A DNA stretch of 55,035 nucleotides, taken from positions 1 through 55,035 of the forward strand of contig JAFCCO010000009.1 in assembly GCA_017610175.1 (NCBI GenBank), given 5' to 3'. The stretch comes from Candidatus Iainarchaeum sp. GTDB lineage: Archaea; Iainarchaeota; Iainarchaeia; Iainarchaeales; GCA-2688035. Shown here one piece after another: positions 6,589 to 47,615 of the stretch. Position 1 is the stretch's first letter, and every line of letters starts with the position of its first letter. Below the pieces are notes generated by a model. That model was not told where the DNA came from and searched no databases. It worked only from the letters and a program-made list of their open reading frames with translations. The translations under genes were made by a program, and so were the position numbers.

Positions 6589-8547
6589 TCATTCCTTGTA
6601 ACCGACAACTTCTTTGAGGTAATCCACAATTTCCGGGTTCTGCAGTGTTGTTGCGTCACCAAGCTTGTCGTTTACCAGCATGCTTCTAAGAAAGCGCCTC
6701 ATTATCTTTCCGCTTCTTGTTTTGGGCAAGCCCTTGACAAGGTAAACCTTGTGCGGTTTTGCGGTTGGTCCGATTTCCTTTCTCACCTGGCCAATAATTT
6801 CTTTCTCCTTTCCCTCAGAGGATTCAACCCCTGCTTTTAGCACAACAAATGCTATCGGAACCTGCCCGCGAATGTCGTCCGGTTTTGGAACAACGGCTGA
6901 TTCAATAACGTCTTGGTGCGAGGTAATTGCGTCCTCGATTTCTGCACTGCTTAGCCTGTGGCCTGCAACCTTCATAACATCATCCACACGGCCTGTGACA
7001 CGGATGTTCTGGTCATCGAACCATCTTGCACCGTCCGCCGTGAAATATGTTTCCTTGCCGTACTCGCTCCAATAGGTGTCAATGAATTTTTTCTCATTGT
7101 TCCACAGCCCGCGCAGCAATCCTGGCACAAACGGCGGCTTGAACACAAGGTAACCTGTGTCCTCACCCGAAACCGGGTGGCCCCTGTCGTCATAAATGTC
7201 CGCGGTCCCTCCCGGAAATGGACGTCCTGCAACTGTTGGGATGAATGGCCCTATTCCAGGCAGGGCGTTAATTAACGTGCCACCTGTTTCGGTCTGCCAC
7301 CATGTATCGATTACAGGGCATCTTCCTTGCCCCACTGTGTTGAAGTACCACATCCAGGCCTCCACATCAATTGGCTCACCGACAGTTCCAAGGATTCTGA
7401 TGCTTGAAACGTCGTGCTTTGTAATCCATTCGTCTCCCATTTTCTTGAACATTCTTATCGCGGTCGGCGCGGTGTAGAAAACCGTTATTCCAAATTTTTC
7501 CACTATGCTCCAAAACCTTCCCCAATCAGGGTAGTCGGGACCGCCCTCATACTCAACCATTGTTGCTCCAACCGACAGCGGACCGTAACAGCCGTAAGTG
7601 TGCCCCGTTACCCAGCCTATGTCTGCGGTGCACCAGAACACATCGTCATCGTGCAGGTCAAAGTCAAGCTTTGTTGTCCAGTAGGCCTGTGTTAAATAAC
7701 CTGCTGTGTCGTGAATTATCCCCTTTGGCTTCCCGGTTGTCCCGGAGGAGTAAAGAAGGAACAAAACATCGTTTGCGTCCATTTGCTCCGGCTCACACTC
7801 TGCCGGCTCGTTTTCAACAATCTCATGGTACCAAACGTCTTTTCCCTCAGTGGTTGCAATTTCGTTTCCTTCCCTTTTTACAATCACAACGTGTTCAATA
7901 CTCGGTGAAGAGGCGGCAATATCTGACTGCTTCTTGAGTTCGATTACCTTTCCCCTCCTTGTGTATCCGTCGCAGGTAATAATTAATTTTGCCTCGGAGT
8001 TCTCTACCCTGTCTTTTAGGGATTCACCGCTGAACGCAGAGAACACAACCCCGTGGATTGCACCGATTCTTGCGCAGGCAAGAAGCGTAATTTGCACCTC
8101 CGGAATCATTGGGAGATAAACGGCAACCCTGTCGCCCTTCTTTACCCCAAGTTTTTTAAGCGCGTTTGCAAACTTGCAAACCTGTTCATGTAACTGCCCG
8201 TAAGTTATTTTCCTTGCCTCTTCCTCAGTGTTTTCGGGCTCCCAGTGTATTGCAACCTTGTCCTTTTTGTCTTTAAGATGCCTGTCAAGGCAGTTGTATG
8301 AAACGTTTATTTTTCCCCCAACAAACCATTTGAAGTAAGGCGGTTTCGATTCATAGGCCGTATCCCATTCCTTAAACCATGTAAGGCCTTCTTTTGCACG
8401 GTTTTCCCAAAATTTAATCGGGTCCTTCTTGGCCTCTTCGTAAAAAGATTCATCATTAACGTAAGCAATTTTCTTCATTTCCTCGCTTGGCCAGAAAATC
8501 TGCTTTTTTTTCTTATCCTCTACTACCCACTGAACACCTTTTTTCAA
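6589..8547 (-). CDS. acs: Acetyl-CoA synthetase, AMP-forming
   Basis: It activates acetate with ATP and CoA to acetyl-CoA, AMP and PPi. The adenylate-forming signature YSSGTTGKPKGIIHD is clear. DTWWQTETGG contains the Trp linked to acetate selectivity. The hinge/CoA region is TGRVDDVMKVAGHRLSSAEIE, and RSGKIMRR carries the catalytic lysine that protein acetylation targets in bacteria. A perfect GGAGG lies about seven bases before TTG 8547, so I prefer this start (652 residues) to the ATG at 8568, which lacks a ribosome site. The gene follows the membrane pyrophosphatase gene closely on the same strand, so its PPi product may drive ion pumping. Confidence 0.95.
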   Translation of the reverse strand: MKKGVQWVVEDKKKKQIFWPSEEMKKIAYVNDESFYEEAKKDPIKFWENRAKEGLTWFKEWDTAYESKPPYFKWFVGGKINVSYNCLDRHLKDKKDKVAIHWEPENTEEEARKITYGQLHEQVCKFANALKKLGVKKGDRVAVYLPMIPEVQITLLACARIGAIHGVVFSAFSGESLKDRVENSEAKLIITCDGYTRRGKVIELKKQSDIAASSPSIEHVVIVKREGNEIATTEGKDVWYHEIVENEPAECEPEQMDANDVLFLLYSSGTTGKPKGIIHDTAGYLTQAYWTTKLDFDLHDDDVFWCTADIGWVTGHTYGCYGPLSVGATMVEYEGGPDYPDWGRFWSIVEKFGITVFYTAPTAIRMFKKMGDEWITKHDVSSIRILGTVGEPIDVEAWMWYFNTVGQGRCPVIDTWWQTETGGTLINALPGIGPFIPTVAGRPFPGGTADIYDDRGHPVSGEDTGYLVFKPPFVPGLLRGLWNNEKKFIDTYWSEYGKETYFTADGARWFDDQNIRVTGRVDDVMKVAGHRLSSAEIEDAITSHQDVIESAVVPKPDDIRGQVPIAFVVLKAGVESSEGKEKEIIGQVRKEIGPTAKPHKVYLVKGLPKTRSGKIMRRFLRSMLVNDKLGDATTLQNPEIVDYLKEVVGYKE

Positions 8548-8606
8548 AAAGAACCCTCCTAACTGCATTCAAAATTTTACTTAATTTATGAGAAATGTAA
8601 ATGATT

Positions 8607-10556
8607 TTAAATAATTAATGGTACAGCCACCAATGCAACAATGGTCATCAGTTTAATCAAAATGTTCAGTGAAGGCCCCGCAGTGTCCTTAAACGGGTCT
8701 CCAACCGTGTCCCCAACAACCGCCGCCTTGTGAACAGGGCTTCCTTTTCCGCCCAAATTTCCTTTCTCAATCCATTTCTTTGCATTGTCCCAAACAGCGC
8801 CTGTGTTTGCCATAAACACAGCCAGCAGGAAACCTGTGGCAATTGAGCCCGCGAGGAAGCCTGCGAGCGCCTCAGCCCCAAGAGACAGGCCGATTGCAAG
8901 CGGGAAGAGAATTGCCGTAAGGGCCGGAACAAGCATTGCATGAATTGCCCCTTCAGTGCTTATTGCAATGCATCTGTCATAATCCGGTTTTGCCTTTCCC
9001 TGCAAAATCCCCTTTATTTCGCGGAACTGCCTGCGAACCTCTTCAACCATTTTGTTGGCTGTTTTTCCAACGGCAGTCATTGTAAGCGATGAGAATATGA
9101 ATGGAACAAGCGCCCCAATAAACAAGCCCACCATGACAACAGGGTTGTTCAAATTAATTGATTCAAGGCCTGCAACAAGGCTGAATGAAGCAAACAATGC
9201 AATCGAGGTTAGTGCTGCGGAACTTATTGCAAAGCCCTTTCCAATTGCCGCTGTGCTGTTTCCAACAGCATCAAGCATTGAAGTTCTTTCAAGAACCTCG
9301 GCATTAAGCCCGGTCATCTCGGCAATTCCCTGTGCATTGTCAGAGATGCTTCCGAACGTGTCTGATGCAAGTGTCAATGCAAGAACTGAAAGCATTCCAA
9401 CCGCTGCAATTGCAATCCCAAAAAGGCCTGCAAAGTAATATGAGACAAGCATTGCAAAACATACTGCAACAACCGGCCCTATTGTTGAAAGCATTCCTGT
9501 TCCAATGCCGCTGATTATGTTTGTGCCCGCCCCTGTTTTTGCAGCCATCGCAACCTGCCTGGCAGGAGAGTATTCGGTTGAAGTAAAGTATTCGGCAGAG
9601 TAGCCTACAAATATTGCGCTAACAAGGCCTGCGACAAGGGCGTAGAATAATCCAAGGTTTGGGAATGCGCCGCTTATTGCAAAGAATGAAAGTGCCGCAG
9701 TTAGCCCTGTGGCAATAAGAACCGAACGATTAATTGCAGTGAATACCTTTTCTCCGCTTGCCTTGGCAAAGAAACTTGCAATAACGCTTGCAACTATCCC
9801 AAGGGCTGCAATTCCAAGGGGAAGAAGGGCACCAAGAATCGGGTATGTAATAACCCCAATTACCATTGCCGCAATTATTGAATCAACATAGCTTTCAAAG
9901 AGATCTGCGCCCATCCCTGCAACATCCCCAACATTGTCCCCAACATTGTCTGCGATTGTTGCAGGATTCATTGGAGAATCCTCGGGAATTCCCGCCTCAA
10001 CCTTGCCAACAAGGTCTGCCCCAACATCTGCCGCTTTTGTGAAAATTCCGCCCCCAACCCTTGCAAAGAGCGCTACGCTGCTTGCCCCGAAACCAAAGCC
10101 GTAGAGCAGGACCGGATCCTGGAAAAAATAATAAAGGGCTGTTACCCCAAGAAGGCCAAAACCCGCAACTGCAAAGCCCGCAACAAGCCCGCTTGAAAAC
10201 GCTACATTGAAGGCCTGCCCAATTCCAGATTTTGCGGCATGAGCGGTTCGAGTGTTTGCCTTTGTTGCTATCCTCATTCCAATGTTTCCGCTCAATGCGG
10301 AAAGCAATGCCCCCAAAACAAACCCAACAGTTGTTTCAAACCCGATTGTGAAGAACAGCACAATCGCAACCACAACAACAAAGCCTGAGAGAACAACATA
10401 CTCCTTGTGCAAAAACGTTAGAGCCCCTTGGTGGATTAGTTCGGAAACTTCCTGCATTGGCTTTGTGCCCGGATTTTTTTTAAGAATGTTAAAATAGTTG
10501 AAGATGGCAAAGCCCACCGCTGCAAGGGCTATTAGCGCAATCCATTCCAAAGGCAT
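8607..10556 (-). CDS. hppA: Membrane-bound ion-pumping pyrophosphatase
   Basis: This is a polytopic integral membrane enzyme that hydrolyses PPi and pumps H+ and/or Na+. The diagnostic [19 protein letters not shown] and [25 protein letters not shown] stretches and the C-terminal [16 protein letters not shown] bind Mg-PPi. The motif [10 protein letters not shown] has Ala where K+-independent enzymes carry Lys, so the K+-dependent class is predicted. Pump specificity cannot be read reliably by eye. It is 649 residues long with about 16 hydrophobic segments. It lies just upstream of acs, a PPi producer. Confidence 0.95.
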
Positions 10557-41938: not shown

Positions 41939-42664
41939 TTAGAGAATCATATGCGCAAGGTGGAACTCTATGGGTGAGCTGCCAATCTTGTAACTAACGC
42001 GCATCGGGGCGTCGCTTTTGAGCTCAAGCTTGATTTTCTTGTTAGGATCCGCCTCTTTGACAACATTCTGCAGGAAATTGAGGCTGTACTTGCTTACAAC
42101 TTCAGCATTGCAGGTAACCGAAACCTGCTTTGTCTGCTTTGCAACGATTTTCAGTGTCCCTGAGCTTCCCCTTGCCTCAATGAAGAGCTCGTTTCCCTTA
42201 ACCCTGAGCACAACACTGCTTCCAAAAAGGGAGGCGTCCTTTAATGCCTCCTTAAAAATTCGGCCGTTTATTTCAATGGTTGCGTCAAAGTTTGAGGTTG
42301 GAAGATTTACATCATTGTCGCTTACATCAATTAGCGGGAGTGAAAAGCTTCTGCTCATAGCCCCATCAAGCCGGAGGTTCATTTCAGAATCACTTAAGTT
42401 AAGAATAAGCTTGTCGTTGGGCATGCTTCTTGAAAGGATTTTGCTAAGCTCAACCATGTCAACCCCGACAAATGTCGGCTCCAAAGAGTACTTCTCAAAA
42501 ACCTTTTTGTCCATTGAAAAGTTTACCAAAACAATCTGGCTTGGGTCAATTGCCCTGAATTTTATCCCATCATCTGAAAAGCGAAAGTTGCCCTCAGATA
42601 TAAATGAAGAAATCGCGTCAATTGCTTTCCTTAAATGTTCAATATTCTTCAGCTCAATAGCCAT
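41939..42664 (-). CDS. pcn: DNA polymerase sliding clamp (PCNA), first paralogue
   Basis: PCNA rings tether polymerase and other repair enzymes to DNA. The sequence shows two similar domains: LRKAIDAISSFISEGNFRFS, RAIDPSQIVLVNFSMDK, LPLIDVSDND, then SMPNDKLILNLS and the C-terminal SYKIGSSPIEFHLAHMI. ATG 42664 gives the canonical length of 241; the frame from 42676 adds a TTG start with no ribosome site. A TATA-like TTTAAA at 42698-42703 inside the end of the upstream kinase gene suggests its own promoter. A second PCNA gene lies 4 kb away. Confidence 0.95.
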   Translation of the reverse strand: MAIELKNIEHLRKAIDAISSFISEGNFRFSDDGIKFRAIDPSQIVLVNFSMDKKVFEKYSLEPTFVGVDMVELSKILSRSMPNDKLILNLSDSEMNLRLDGAMSRSFSLPLIDVSDNDVNLPTSNFDATIEINGRIFKEALKDASLFGSSVVLRVKGNELFIEARGSSGTLKIVAKQTKQVSVTCNAEVVSKYSLNFLQNVVKEADPNKKIKLELKSDAPMRVSYKIGSSPIEFHLAHMIL

Positions 42665-42694: not shown

Positions 42695-43489
42695 TTATTT
42701 AAAACAGTTTCCCCAAAAAACAGCCGCCCCAATGGCAGTGGCATAAGCCCTGTGCTTTGGAAAAGACGGCTTAAAGCCATAGTATGCAAGCACCCTCTTC
42801 AAAGCCCTTTTAACAGCGGGAAATGCATGTGCCTTTCCCACAAAGACAATTTTTTTGTGCCGAGCCTGCTTTGCGGCAAGCGCTGCGATTACCGCATTGG
42901 TTTCCCCAACCATTGCCTGAATCCCAAGGGCAAGGTCGTTTTTTGATCCGCCAACCTTTGCAAAATTACTCGCGGTCGCATCACTGGGAACAATCCCTAT
43001 TCCGGAACCGATTGCCTCGCGCACACTCAAATCTGTTTTGCTTTTTTTTCCCTTTAAAGCAAGCCTTGAAAGTTTTTGGATTGACGAGGTTCCAACCAGT
43101 TTTTTGGACAGGCCAAGTACTGTCCCTCCCGCTAGGCCTGTGCCCCCCACATGCTTTGCCTTGCCCTGCTTCACTGAAACCATACAGGTTCCTGTCCCCA
43201 TTGAAACAACAAGTGCGGACTTTGAATTTGCAATGGTTACGCCTCCAAAACCGATTGCGTCAATCTCGCCAACCCTTGAAAATTTCTTTCCCAAAACCTT
43301 TTTCAGCGAACGGTTTGCCCCCGTAACCACAATGTGCTCAACCTTTTCCAAATCAATTTTGTTTTTGCGCAGTGCCTTTTTCAGCGCGGCCTGCGACCTT
43401 GTTTCAAGGTGGAAGGTTTTGATTGGCTTGCAGCCGCGCACAAGTGCGACATCGGTTGTGCTAATCCCAAAATCTATTCCAAGAATCAT
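42695..43489 (-). CDS. coaW: Pantothenate kinase, type II-like
   Basis: It is an ASKHA-fold kinase. GIDFGISTTDVALV is the first phosphate loop, SMGTGTCMVSV the second, and VGGTGLAGGTVLGLSKKL is the hallmark of type II pantothenate kinases of Staphylococcus and eukaryotes. SDATASNFAKVG is another type II block. It should phosphorylate pantothenate to 4'-phosphopantothenate. Its start overlaps the panC stop by 4 bases, placing it in the CoA operon and supporting the assignment. Archaea usually use pantoate kinase instead. Length is 264. Confidence 0.87.
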   Translation of the reverse strand: MILGIDFGISTTDVALVRGCKPIKTFHLETRSQAALKKALRKNKIDLEKVEHIVVTGANRSLKKVLGKKFSRVGEIDAIGFGGVTIANSKSALVVSMGTGTCMVSVKQGKAKHVGGTGLAGGTVLGLSKKLVGTSSIQKLSRLALKGKKSKTDLSVREAIGSGIGIVPSDATASNFAKVGGSKNDLALGIQAMVGETNAVIAALAAKQARHKKIVFVGKAHAFPAVKRALKRVLAYYGFKPSFPKHRAYATAIGAAVFWGNCFK

Positions 43490-44322
43490 TCAAACACCCT
43501 GTTATCAATTAATCTTGCCTTTTCAAAAAACACGGCAAGAGCGATTGCGTTCCCTGAGCCGATTTTTTCCACCGGCTTAAGGGACTCTGTTTCAAACAAT
43601 TTAACGTAATCGATTTTGCAGCCGGTTTCTGAAAGCCTGTCAATTACCGCCTGCCGCACATTAGCGGGATTGGTTTCCCCTCTTGAAAACATTTCCTGCG
43701 CAAGGGAAAGTGCCTTGTTCAGAACAGGCGCTTTTTTGCGCTCTTCTTTTGAGAGATACTTGTTTCTGCTGCTCATTGCAAGCCCATCCTCTTCCCTTAC
43801 AATGGGACAGCCAACCAGCTCCAAATCAAAGTTCAGGTCATCAACCATTTTCTTCACTATTACAAACTGCTGAAAATCCTTTAAGCCAAAGTATGCATGG
43901 GTGGGCTTTGCAATGTTGAACAGTTTTGAAACAACTGTTGTGACCCCGCGAAAGTGGCTTGGCCTTGTTTTCCCGCAAAGAACTTTTCCAAGCTCTTCAA
44001 CCTCGACAAATGTTAGGGGCTTGGAATACATTTCCCCTGTGCTTGGAAAGAAGATTGCGTCTGCATTTTCTTTTTCACACAATTCTTTGTCCCGCTCAAA
44101 GTCGCGCGGGTATGCTTTAAGGTCCTCGTTTGGCGCAAACTGTGTTGGGTTTACAAAAATGCTTACAACAACAACCTCGCATTCGGCTCTTGCTTTTTTA
44201 ACAAGGCTCAAGTGCCCTTTGTGAAGAAAGCCCATTGTGGGAACAAACCCGATTGTTTTGCCTTTGAGCCTTGCGGCATTTGAAAACGCCCGCATCTCCC
44301 TAACGGTTTTGATTACATCCAA
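43486..44322 (-). CDS. panC: Pantothenate synthetase
   Basis: It joins pantoate and beta-alanine using ATP. The nucleotidyltransferase HxGH motif appears in PTMGFLHKGHLSLV, followed by SIFVNPTQFAPNEDL, FRGVTTVVSKLFNI, YFGLKDFQQ and the KMSKS-like AMSSRN. This is the bacterial/eukaryotic family, uncommon in archaea. It starts 5 bases after panB and overlaps the kinase gene. Length is 278, normal. Confidence 0.95.
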   Translation of the reverse strand: MDVIKTVREMRAFSNAARLKGKTIGFVPTMGFLHKGHLSLVKKARAECEVVVVSIFVNPTQFAPNEDLKAYPRDFERDKELCEKENADAIFFPSTGEMYSKPLTFVEVEELGKVLCGKTRPSHFRGVTTVVSKLFNIAKPTHAYFGLKDFQQFVIVKKMVDDLNFDLELVGCPIVREEDGLAMSSRNKYLSKEERKKAPVLNKALSLAQEMFSRGETNPANVRQAVIDRLSETGCKIDYVKLFETESLKPVEKIGSGNAIALAVFFEKARLIDNRVFE

Positions 44323-44327
44323 TTAGT

Positions 44328-45095
44328 TCACCCAAACGAGTTTTCTTCGGCAGGGAATTTTTCATCCAAAACATCCTGCTTAAATTCCAAGACGGCTTTT
44401 TCAATTTCTTCCGCAAGCGAGGCATATTTTTTCACAAACTTTGGCCTGAAACTGGGGTTGATGCCGAGAAGATCAGTAATAACCAGAACTTGCCCGCTGC
44501 AAAACTTTCCTGCGCCGATTCCGATTGTTGGCGCTGAAATTGATTCGGTAATTTTCTTTGCAAGCTTTGAAGGAACGCATTCAAGAACTATTGCTATTGC
44601 CCCAAGCGAATCAAGTTCCTTTGCGTCCTTTAAAATCTTTTCAGCTTCAGCTATTTCCTTTCCCTGAACGCAGTATTTCTCAGCAGTCTGGGGAAGCAAT
44701 CCAAGGTGACCCATTGCGGGAATTCCTGCTTTGGCCAGTGCCTTAATTACTTCCGGCTTGTTGCCCTCAAACTTTACAGCCAAAGCGCCTGCTTCAATCA
44801 GCCTGGTTGCATTTTTTACAGCGCTCTCACCTGTTTCGTATGAACCAATTGGCATGTCACCTATTACCGGTGTTTTTTCAACACCTCTTGCAACAGCAGC
44901 AGTGTGGCGAACCATATCATCCATAGTGACACTCTTTGTGTCCTTAAAACCGAGAACAACCATGCCAAGGCTGTCCCCAACAAGGATTAGGTCAATGCCC
45001 GCCTTTTCAACCAGCTTTGCCATGGGAAAGTCGTAGGCTGTGAGCATTGTTATTTTTTCTTTCCTGCGCAGCCATGAAAAATTTGCTTGGTTCAT
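44328..45095 (-). CDS. panB: Ketopantoate hydroxymethyltransferase
   Basis: It makes ketopantoate from ketoisovalerate and methylenetetrahydrofolate. MLTAYDFPMAKLVEKAGIDLILVGDSLGMV carries the metal-binding Asp (given here as the N-terminal block), followed by GDMPIGSYE, KFEGN, GHLGLLPQ, LECVPS, and GIGAGKFCSGQVLVITDLLG. The barrel is complete at 255 residues. The start overlaps the coaBC stop by 4 bases. No panE or panD is present in the window. Confidence 0.95.
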   Translation of the reverse strand: MNQANFSWLRRKEKITMLTAYDFPMAKLVEKAGIDLILVGDSLGMVVLGFKDTKSVTMDDMVRHTAAVARGVEKTPVIGDMPIGSYETGESAVKNATRLIEAGALAVKFEGNKPEVIKALAKAGIPAMGHLGLLPQTAEKYCVQGKEIAEAEKILKDAKELDSLGAIAIVLECVPSKLAKKITESISAPTIGIGAGKFCSGQVLVITDLLGINPSFRPKFVKKYASLAEEIEKAVLEFKQDVLDEKFPAEENSFG

Positions 45096-46264
45096 TTTAC
45101 CATGTCCAGAATCCTGTTTGCAATTTCTCGCTTGTGGCTCGGCCCGAAATGAATGCTTTTGCCACCCGCATTTACAACGTAAACCTCGTTTTTTTCAGAG
45201 CCGATTCCAATCCCCTTTCCGCATGCGTCGTTTGCAACAACCAAATCGGCTTTGGCATCTTTGAGTTTTGAAAATGCGCGTTCAACCAGTGTTTTCTTTG
45301 AAACATTGCACTCTGCCTTGAACCCCACAAGGAATACATTTGGATTGAGGCGCTTTATTTTTTCAAGAATCTTTTCGGTTGGGGTGAGCTTTAGGCTGAA
45401 TTCCTTTCCGCTTGCAATTTTTCCCGATTTCTTTTTTACGGTGTAATCCGAAACAGCCGCTGCGTGAATTATTATGTCTGCTTTCACATTTTTCTTAACC
45501 GCCTGAAGCATTTCACCTGCACTTCGAACTTTTACATCTTTGATTGCCGGGCTTGGCTCAATTGATGTGAGCCCCCTTACAAGTGTAACCTTTGCCCCAC
45601 GGGCTTGAGCCTGTTCTGCAATGTGAATTCCCATCTTTCCGCTGCTTCTGTTTGCAATGAATCTTACATCATCGATGTCCTCTGCGGTTCCGCCTGCGGT
45701 CACAAGAATTCTTTTCCCCATTAGGTCCTTTTTTGCAAGTGCGGAATCAATTAATTCAGCCAGCTCTTTTATTGCGGGAAACTTTGCCTTGTTTTCCGCA
45801 ATGTTTGGCTTTGCAACCACAACGTTGAATGACTCAAGCTTGGAAATGTTTTGCACAACGATTGGGTGCCGGTACATTGAAATGTGCATTGAAGGCACAA
45901 CCATTATTGGAATTTTGGAACCAAACGCGGTCGTGACAATTGTTGTTACCGGTGTGTCATCAATTCCTGCGGCAATTTTCCCGATTGTGTTTGCGGTGCA
46001 TGGCGCAACAACAACAAGGTCTGCTTTGTTGGGAACTTGTCCCGCAAGCTTTACGTGCTCTACTTTTCCGGTTATTTTTGTGACAACCTTGTTTTCGGAC
46101 GCCCACTCAAGCACGTCGGGGTGAATTATCTGCTTTGCGCTTTTCGACATCGCGCAGTAAACTTTTGCCCCGCGGCGCCTTAGCTCGCGAACAAGCTTGG
46201 GCGTTTCAATTGCCGCAACACTGCCGGTTACGCATACAACTATTCTCTTTCCTTTTAGGGCCAT
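45092..46264 (-). CDS. coaBC: Bifunctional phosphopantothenoylcysteine synthetase/decarboxylase
   Basis: The N-terminal CoaC half is a flavoprotein decarboxylase (CVTGSVAAIETPKLVRELRRRG, APCTANTIGKIAAGIDDTPV, PSMHISMY). The CoaB half ligates cysteine (GGTAEDIDDVRFIANRSSGKMG, AAVSDY, VFLVGFKAE, VANDACGKGIG). The Cys-containing flap seen in E. coli CoaC is not obvious; KPNIAENKAKF stands there, which resembles archaeal CoaBC sequences as I recall them. A TATA-like TTTAAA lies about 28 bases before the ATG and would start the coaBC-panB-panC-kinase operon. Length is 390. Confidence 0.95.
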   Translation of the reverse strand: MALKGKRIVVCVTGSVAAIETPKLVRELRRRGAKVYCAMSKSAKQIIHPDVLEWASENKVVTKITGKVEHVKLAGQVPNKADLVVVAPCTANTIGKIAAGIDDTPVTTIVTTAFGSKIPIMVVPSMHISMYRHPIVVQNISKLESFNVVVAKPNIAENKAKFPAIKELAELIDSALAKKDLMGKRILVTAGGTAEDIDDVRFIANRSSGKMGIHIAEQAQARGAKVTLVRGLTSIEPSPAIKDVKVRSAGEMLQAVKKNVKADIIIHAAAVSDYTVKKKSGKIASGKEFSLKLTPTEKILEKIKRLNPNVFLVGFKAECNVSKKTLVERAFSKLKDAKADLVVANDACGKGIGIGSEKNEVYVVNAGGKSIHFGPSHKREIANRILDMVK

Positions 46265-46336: not shown

Positions 46337-46759
46337 TTAGATGTTTTCGTTTTTTGCCTTCTGCCTTATTTCGTGCCTGTAAAGGAGGTTCTTTAGCTTC
46401 CTAACCTCTTCCTGCTCAAAAACAATGCTTTTCTCAACGTAACCCCTTGCAATTACCCCGAGCACATAGAGCACAAGACCCACTCCAAAAAGGGAGTAGA
46501 ATACGGTGAAAATCTTTGAGACGTCGGTTGTGGGTAAGAAATCCCCGTAGCCGATTGTTGTAAGTGTCATTGCACTAAAGTAGAATGAGTCAACATAAGT
46601 CCAGTTTTGGCCCTGCATCGGACCGTCCTTATAGGTTTCAAGGCCGCTGTAAATAAAGGTCCCCAGGATAATCATTATTCCGAGGAATATAACCGCAAAG
46701 CCAATTTTGACCTTTACCTCTTTTTCAGTTTCCTTGACAATTTCGGACTTATCAACCAT
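46337..46759 (-). CDS. Two-TM potassium channel
   Basis: Two helices (IGFAVIFLGIMIILGTFIYSG and IFTVFYSLFGVGLVLYVLGVI) flank a pore loop with the K+ filter TIGYGD. The short C-terminus is a charged helix (EQEEVRKLKNLLYRHEIRQK) and no RCK/TrkA-N domain is attached. Four copies would make one pore. Length is 140. Confidence 0.9.
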   Translation of the reverse strand: MVDKSEIVKETEKEVKVKIGFAVIFLGIMIILGTFIYSGLETYKDGPMQGQNWTYVDSFYFSAMTLTTIGYGDFLPTTDVSKIFTVFYSLFGVGLVLYVLGVIARGYVEKSIVFEQEEVRKLKNLLYRHEIRQKAKNENI

Positions 46760-46808: not shown

Positions 46809-47555
46809 TTATTCCGATTCAATTCGGGGCGCAAGGAAATAGGTTATGTTTGCGGCACCGATTGCGTAAGAAATTTCAACAGGAGCGTTTGTTTTCAGCT
46901 TTACCGTTACCTCTGAGTCTGATGAAGGGCCTTTTAACATGTCCCGCAGGTAGTCGAGGGGAAACATGCTTGATGCCGGCTGTGAAGCGTTCAACTCCAA
47001 AAGATTTTTGTCGTCCTTCTTTGTTTCGTTATCCACTGAGCCCTTGCTGCTGCTTGCCCTTACAAAAAAGCTGTCTGATTCAACCCCAAGGGAAATGTGG
47101 GTGCTGATAAGTGCCGCGTCCTTAAATGCGTCCTGAAGAACGCCTGCCCTAAGCTTGACGGTGGCATCAAATTCAATTTTTGGGTTTGGAAGTTCTGCCG
47201 AGCTGATGTCAATCAATGGAACCTGGAATTTTCTGGTTGATGCGCCCTTGAACTGAACAAGAAGCCTGCTCTTGTCCTCGTTTAATTCTATGGACAGCAG
47301 GTCGTCGCTTTTTGCGCGCGACATTATTTGGTTAAGGTAATCCAAATCCATTCCAAGCTTCATCTTGCTGTCAATGGTGTATTCCTTGAACGCTGACTTC
47401 TCCATTTTGAAGTCAACCATTGAAATCTGGCTTGGGTCTGTTGCCTTGAGAAGAAGTGCGTTTTCATCGAGGGTAAATTCTGCCTCGTCAATCAGGACAC
47501 TTATTGCTGAAATGCTTTTCTGAAAATCCGCTGCCTTCTCCAAAACAATCTTCAA
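46809..47555 (-). CDS. DNA polymerase sliding clamp (PCNA), second paralogue
   Basis: The clamp pattern is clear: KIVLEKAADFQKSISAISVLI, KATDPSQISMVDFKMEKSAF, QVPLIDISSAELP, ASSMFPLDYLRDMLKG and SYAIGAANITYFLAPRIESE. A GAGGGG ribosome site lies seven bases before TTG 47555, which gives the usual clamp N-terminus, so the longer frame from 47585 is rejected. The sequence differs greatly from the other PCNA here and has an insert rich in Lys/Asp near residue 180 (SVDNETKKDDKN). Length is 248. Confidence 0.92.
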   Translation of the reverse strand: MKIVLEKAADFQKSISAISVLIDEAEFTLDENALLLKATDPSQISMVDFKMEKSAFKEYTIDSKMKLGMDLDYLNQIMSRAKSDDLLSIELNEDKSRLLVQFKGASTRKFQVPLIDISSAELPNPKIEFDATVKLRAGVLQDAFKDAALISTHISLGVESDSFFVRASSSKGSVDNETKKDDKNLLELNASQPASSMFPLDYLRDMLKGPSSDSEVTVKLKTNAPVEISYAIGAANITYFLAPRIESE

Positions 47556-47615
47556 ATTAAACCCCTCAGATAAAACTGAAGTCAATTAAGTTTAAAATGC
47601 TATTCAAAAATCGGT

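Follow-up and report, generated by a model that had tools for sequence, protein, structure and literature searches.

A putative coenzyme A operon of bacterial order, with PanC and a type II pantothenate-kinase-like protein, in an Iainarchaeota archaeon

The window considered here (the whole stretch of DNA that was analysed, 55,035 nucleotides from Candidatus Iainarchaeum sp., contig JAFCCO010000009.1) belongs to an Iainarchaeota (Diapherotrites) metagenome-assembled genome (MAG; G000) of 34 contigs and 1.24 Mb, and it carries at 46264-42695, on the minus strand, four closely packed genes: coaBC, panB, panC and a type II pantothenate-kinase-like gene. We consider it very probable that this operon encodes a coenzyme A (CoA) route of bacterial order, running through free pantothenate (vitamin B5), in place of pantoate kinase (PoK) and phosphopantothenate synthetase (PPS), the archaeal pair in which phosphorylation precedes condensation. 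Specifically, PanB would yield ketopantoate, which would be reduced by an enzyme not found in G000; PanC would then join pantoate and beta-alanine to give free pantothenate, the kinase would phosphorylate it, and CoaBC would add cysteine and decarboxylate the product to 4′-phosphopantetheine. The genes, from 5′ to 3′ on the coding strand, are as follows.

45092 to 46264, minus strand: coaBC, bifunctional phosphopantothenate-cysteine ligase / phosphopantothenoylcysteine decarboxylase of archaeal type (TIGR00521)
44328 to 45095, minus strand: panB, ketopantoate hydroxymethyltransferase (PF02548, TIGR00222)
43486 to 44322, minus strand: panC, pantoate-beta-alanine ligase (pantothenate synthetase), with a TTG start (TIGR00018)
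42695 to 43489, minus strand: type II pantothenate-kinase-like ASKHA kinase (PF03630, AlphaFold model)

The distribution of these genes across the phylum is the strongest evidence that two mutually exclusive routes exist. Among 87 Iainarchaeota genomes, 22 have the kinase, nine have PanC and 15 have PPS; all nine PanC genomes fall within the 22 that have the kinase, and no kinase genome has PPS. With genomes counted as independent, which they are not, the hypergeometric probability is 0.008 for the lack of overlap between kinase and PPS and 1e-6 for the placement of every PanC genome inside the kinase set. The families with the kinase (f1, f2, f3, f5, f9, f11, f16) and those with PPS (f6, f7, f10, f13, f17, f19) are also disjoint (0.08 by the same count). 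Incompleteness does not explain the split, because each of the two states is seen in a near-complete genome: G057 (97% complete, 2 contigs) has PanB, PanC, the kinase, CoaBC and PanE without PPS, and G035 (99%, 1 contig) has PPS, PanB, PanE and CoaBC without PanC or the kinase. Thirteen kinase genomes of the phylum give no match to PanC, PanB or PPS, and the remaining families, with neither PPS nor the kinase, may be auxotrophs. A preliminary description of this DNA, made from the letters alone, had called the type II kinase a rare choice; its presence in 22 of the 87 genomes, in at least 10 other archaeal genomes and in many bacteria contradicts that view.

Within G000 itself, PPS (PF02006) is without a match, although the model used does detect PPS in each of the four archaeal controls and in 15 further Iainarchaeota genomes. 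There are two GHMP kinases in this genome, one of which passes the mevalonate kinase cut-off while the other best matches mevalonate and sugar kinases. Neither is recognisable as a pantoate kinase (31 and 27 bits against a cut-off of 380), with the proviso that the model is named for methanogens and a divergent PoK is possible. Thus a search of the genome for pantoate kinase and PPS, proposed in the preliminary description, recovered neither from a genome that is 90% complete. Type III pantothenate kinase (PanK) was not found in any genome of the phylum, G000 included.

Inspection of the open reading frames bore out the earlier account of a minus-strand cluster held together by 4-base overlaps or a 5-base gap: coaBC and panB overlap by 4 bp, panB and panC are 5 bp apart, panC and the kinase gene overlap by 4 bp, and the four genes are probably co-transcribed. 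The complete coaBC-panB-panC-kinase order occurs in G000, G018 and G029, and in G027, where coaBC lies at the end of a contig and is incomplete; panB-panC-kinase is found in G019 and G059, and G022 has the order panE-panC-carB-kinase (L050). Linkage of the CoA genes is thus kept in several genera, and because the same order recurs across genomes the cluster is not due to chance. Two genomes without PanB and PanC (G002 and G066) have coaBC directly upstream of the kinase gene, as would be expected if imported pantothenate is used. Genes of the Iainarchaeota operon type also appear in public MAGs labelled Chloroflexi (L050), Falkowbacteria (L056) and Thaumarchaeota (L058), where the labels seem wrong or the bins mixed.

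The identities of the first three proteins are secure when judged by the curated NCBIfam cut-offs (219.7 bits for TIGR00521, 207.6 for TIGR00222 and 212.8 for TIGR00018), and their affinities differ. CoaBC scores 372 bits against TIGR00521 and contains both the CoaC (PF02441) and CoaB (PF04127) domains. In the alignment it is without the bacterial L-A-C/S-G-x-x-G-x-G-R/K segment and has AENKAKFP, as do the other Iainarchaeota CoaBC proteins examined, and the CoaBC tree gives full support to a split between the Iainarchaeota rows and the bacterial rows. By these features the window CoaBC is of archaeal type, which agrees with the archaeal look first ascribed to it. The same tree groups it with the proteins of G018, G029 and G066 as a separate type tied to the operon, and other PanC-route genomes (G022, G057, G059) have the common CoaBC type. 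Since the PanC-route genomes are divided between two types, coaBC itself seems to have been replaced in some Iainarchaeota lineages. Comparison of L169, L170 and L173 with the window gene likewise displays two CoaBC types among PanC-route Iainarchaeota, one linked to the operon and one shared with the PPS-route families.

PanB (325 bits to PF02548, 291 bits to TIGR00222) clusters with Iainarchaeota PanB proteins of both routes, PPS-route genomes included. PanC scores 353 bits against TIGR00018 with its PTMGFLHKGH, FVNPTQF and SSRN motifs intact, and its closest solved structure is 2ejc (337 bits), which we take to be the PanC of Thermotoga maritima. Matches to the PanC family occur in nine bacterial control genomes and in none of the four archaeal ones. 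A PanC tree that includes 11 bacterial rows, too few as references, places the Iainarchaeota in three groups of unsettled order near Thermotoga maritima PanC. Because the best solved match is 2ejc and the family was found in bacterial controls only, PanC is likely of bacterial origin. The suggestion that the pathway was obtained at least partly from bacteria therefore holds for PanC; it does not extend to PanB, which is not bacterial-looking and groups with PPS-route Iainarchaeota, and a recent transfer of the kinase was not demonstrated.

The kinase merits closer consideration. It matches Pfam Fumble (PF03630) with 73.3 bits against a gathering score of 28.5, and its AlphaFold model (pLDDT 95) aligns to the Staphylococcus aureus type II PanK with a template modelling (TM) score of 0.82-0.85, followed by the yeast and human PanKs. 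All 50 PDB matches listed are type II PanKs (TM 0.72-0.85 on the query), and the predicted fold is the type II PanK ASKHA fold of S. aureus PanK and PANK3. The catalytic glutamate (E75, equivalent to E70 of S. aureus and E138 of PANK3) is invariant in A1 and A2, and the glycines of the GTG loop are invariant as well. In human PANK3, Ser195 and Arg207 contact pantothenate (PMC8366970). At the equivalent positions, Ser102 and Arg113 in S. aureus, the window kinase has Cys102 and His113. It would be wrong to view His113 as an oddity of the Iainarchaeota; every archaeal near relative sampled has it, as do almost all of the bacterial ones, which makes it the norm, and for that reason we treat it as the mark of a subfamily. 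Assignment as a 2-hydroxyacyl-CoA dehydratase activase was considered and rejected, as the protein scores 36.7 against a TIGR00241 cut-off of 125.4 and a true activase of the phylum (L047) scores 262. In the kinase tree the Iainarchaeota proteins hold together as one group, moderately supported and without a close bacterial donor. Recent transfer from bacteria is unsupported: the Iainarchaeota kinases cluster together save for one long-branched Peregrinibacteria row. Because PanC upstream and CoaBC downstream both call for pantothenate, that compound is the probable substrate of the kinase in G000.

Several observations weigh against a pantothenate route encoded by this operon. The kinase falls under the type II PanK equivalog cut-offs (PRK13317, 171.9 against 234; TIGR00555, 89.1 against 247.6), with members of its subfamily lying on both sides of the PRK13317 value (L077, for example, reaches 249). 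Two of the three same-protomer side chains that contact pantothenate in PANK3 are changed in the subfamily (Ser195 to Cys or Ala, Arg207 to His), and Bacillus anthracis has a type II PanK that is catalytically inactive (PMC8366970). No PanK besides the type II-like kinase was found in G000, in a search that covered type III and not type I CoaA. Likewise, G000 has no convincing ketopantoate reductase (PanE), giving weak partial ApbA matches only. A search for the archaeal dephospho-CoA kinase (DUF359/PF04019) left 86 of the 87 genomes, all but G086, without a match, although the controls matched; bacterial CoaE, not covered by that search, could supply this step. In addition, the assembly is 90% complete. 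Hence the PanC-PanK route put forward in the preliminary description holds as a replacement of the PoK-PPS route, but it is not complete in G000 as far as is visible: ketopantoate reductase and archaeal dephospho-CoA kinase were not found, and PanD, phosphopantetheine adenylyltransferase (PPAT) and CoaE were not among the enzymes searched for.

Some of these observations would also fit a kinase that acts mainly on pantetheine, as a salvage enzyme riding in the operon, with phosphopantothenate made by another, undetected kinase. Homologues occur in six archaeal genomes outside the Iainarchaeota that are without the CoaB domain, and in these phosphopantothenate would lead nowhere; two Bathyarchaeota loci have the kinase near PPAT and an energy-coupling factor (ECF) S component; and the substrate-contact residues are unlike those of known PanKs. 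In G000, however, the product of PanC is pantothenate and the substrate of CoaBC is phosphopantothenate, the searches for PPS and type III PanK revealed no further PanK, and the kinase gene overlaps panC here and adjoins coaBC in G002 and G066, so that we regard this explanation as unlikely. The two substrates need not be in conflict, as known PanKs may take both: the CoaA enzymes of Escherichia coli and Bacillus subtilis accept pantothenate and pantetheine (PMC11487621). It is much less probable that the protein is a new kind of pantoate kinase, with the archaeal order of steps kept and PanC acting as a phosphopantothenate synthetase. The archaeal lineage and the sub-threshold PanK score are compatible with such a role, but PanC, with its motifs intact, is a conventional pantoate-beta-alanine ligase, and in the 13 kinase genomes without a PanC, PanB or PPS match phosphopantoate would have neither a source nor a use. 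Least credible of all is an artefact of binning or assembly that joined bacterial genes to an archaeal contig; despite the bacterial labels on some relatives' records (L050 ‘Chloroflexi’, L056 ‘Falkowbacteria’), MAGs obtained independently show the same order, next to PCNA and primase genes of archaeal kind, and the CoaBC of the operon is itself archaeal in type.

It is also worth considering the kinase outside the phylum, where it was found in 10 archaeal genomes, among them Bathyarchaeota, Brockarchaeota and a MAG labelled Micrarchaeota. PPS and PanC were not found in any of these 10 genomes, and the CoaB domain was not found in any of the six that were tested for it. In two Bathyarchaeota loci (L071, 527-2914; L111, 4216-6494) the kinase gene, an archaeal PPAT gene and an ECF S-like gene, weakly similar to riboflavin-type ECF S components, lie side by side. 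In Brockarchaeota (L078, 5145-6843; L115, 5173-7733) an ECF S-like gene directly precedes the kinase gene, and in L115 a second follows it; a homologue from Clostridiaceae (L076) adjoins an ECF S component as well. B. subtilis takes up pantothenate through an ECF S component, and its CoaA phosphorylates pantetheine as well as pantothenate (PMC11487621). We hypothesize that the kinase has a salvage role in archaea of the Bathyarchaeota and Brockarchaeota kind, with pantetheine the likelier substrate where CoaB is missing. More broadly, and with somewhat less than even confidence, we propose that the His113 subfamily marks a second way, widespread among archaea, of securing CoA. With PanC it would complete de novo synthesis in Iainarchaeota; in Bathyarchaeota, Brockarchaeota and relatives without PPS, PanC and CoaB it would be the entry enzyme of a salvage pathway in which ECF-imported pantetheine or pantothenate is phosphorylated, leading to 4′-phosphopantetheine, which PPAT would turn into dephospho-CoA. 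If true, the absence of PoK and PPS from these phyla would be accounted for, and they would rely on their neighbours for a vitamin.

It is informative to compare the operon with known systems. Like the bacterial pathway of panBC, pantothenate kinase and coaBC, it would proceed from pantoate to pantothenate through PanC, then through a kinase and CoaBC, and the bacterial comparison loci (L149-L152) share its adjacency of panB and panC. In contrast, the four-gene operon of the window starts with a coaBC of archaeal type and includes a type II kinase; no bacterial locus joining coaBC and a type II kinase to panBC was seen in the small set examined. With the PoK-PPS pathway of the Thermococcus kodakarensis type (PMC6650551) it shares PanB and an archaeal-type CoaBC, and sister families within the phylum do have PPS; it differs in that PoK and PPS were not found in the window genome and that phosphorylation would follow condensation with beta-alanine. 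PoK-PPS is the main archaeal route and a hallmark of the domain, with listed exceptions that include Bathyarchaeota and Thermoplasmatales (PMC6650551). Picrophilus torridus, as cited in that paper, has a pantothenate kinase, and Cuniculiplasma divulgatum is reported to have a type I PanK (PMC7285479). These Thermoplasmatales resemble the present case as archaea with a PanK and without PoK and PPS, but they belong to another lineage, and the Cuniculiplasma enzyme is of type I. Similarly, the S. aureus type II PanK (PDB 6awh, 4m7y, 2ews) shares the fold (TM 0.82-0.85), the catalytic glutamate (Glu70, here E75) and the glycine-rich GTGT loop, but has only ~22% identity and differs at the two substituted positions (Arg113 to His, Ser102 to Cys).

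A literature search without most subscription journals found no published description of a PanC-type II PanK operon in Iainarchaeota, nor any link between Diapherotrites and pantothenate, and we therefore take the operon as a new variation on a known pathway. In these data a single archaeal phylum splits cleanly into families with PPS and families with a PanK-type kinase. The kinase may be the enzyme behind some of the exceptions to the PoK-PPS route, and the findings are relevant to the extent to which DPANN archaea with small genomes synthesize their own cofactors or depend on others for them.

The operon lies in an archaeal setting, on a contig rich in archaeal core genes (Topo VI, PCNA, both primase subunits, eIF2-alpha, aRF1, Gins51, RpoL). 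An Rfam search found no regulatory RNA near it. The next gene downstream, given for context only, is as follows.

41939 to 42664, minus strand: PCNA (PF00705/PF02747)

Its ATG lies 30 bases past the kinase stop, with the primase subunits coming next, and it is possibly in one transcript with the CoA genes; PCNA adjoins the kinase gene in many relatives (L028-L031, L035, L037-L040). Together with a small ion-channel-like gene (46337-46759), the operon sits between two PCNA genes (46809-47585 and 41939-42664), and paired PCNA genes also surround the CoA operon in L052 and L057. Elsewhere in the window, a membrane proton pyrophosphatase gene and an acetyl-CoA-synthetase-like gene adjoin one another (8607-10556 and 6589-8568, respectively).

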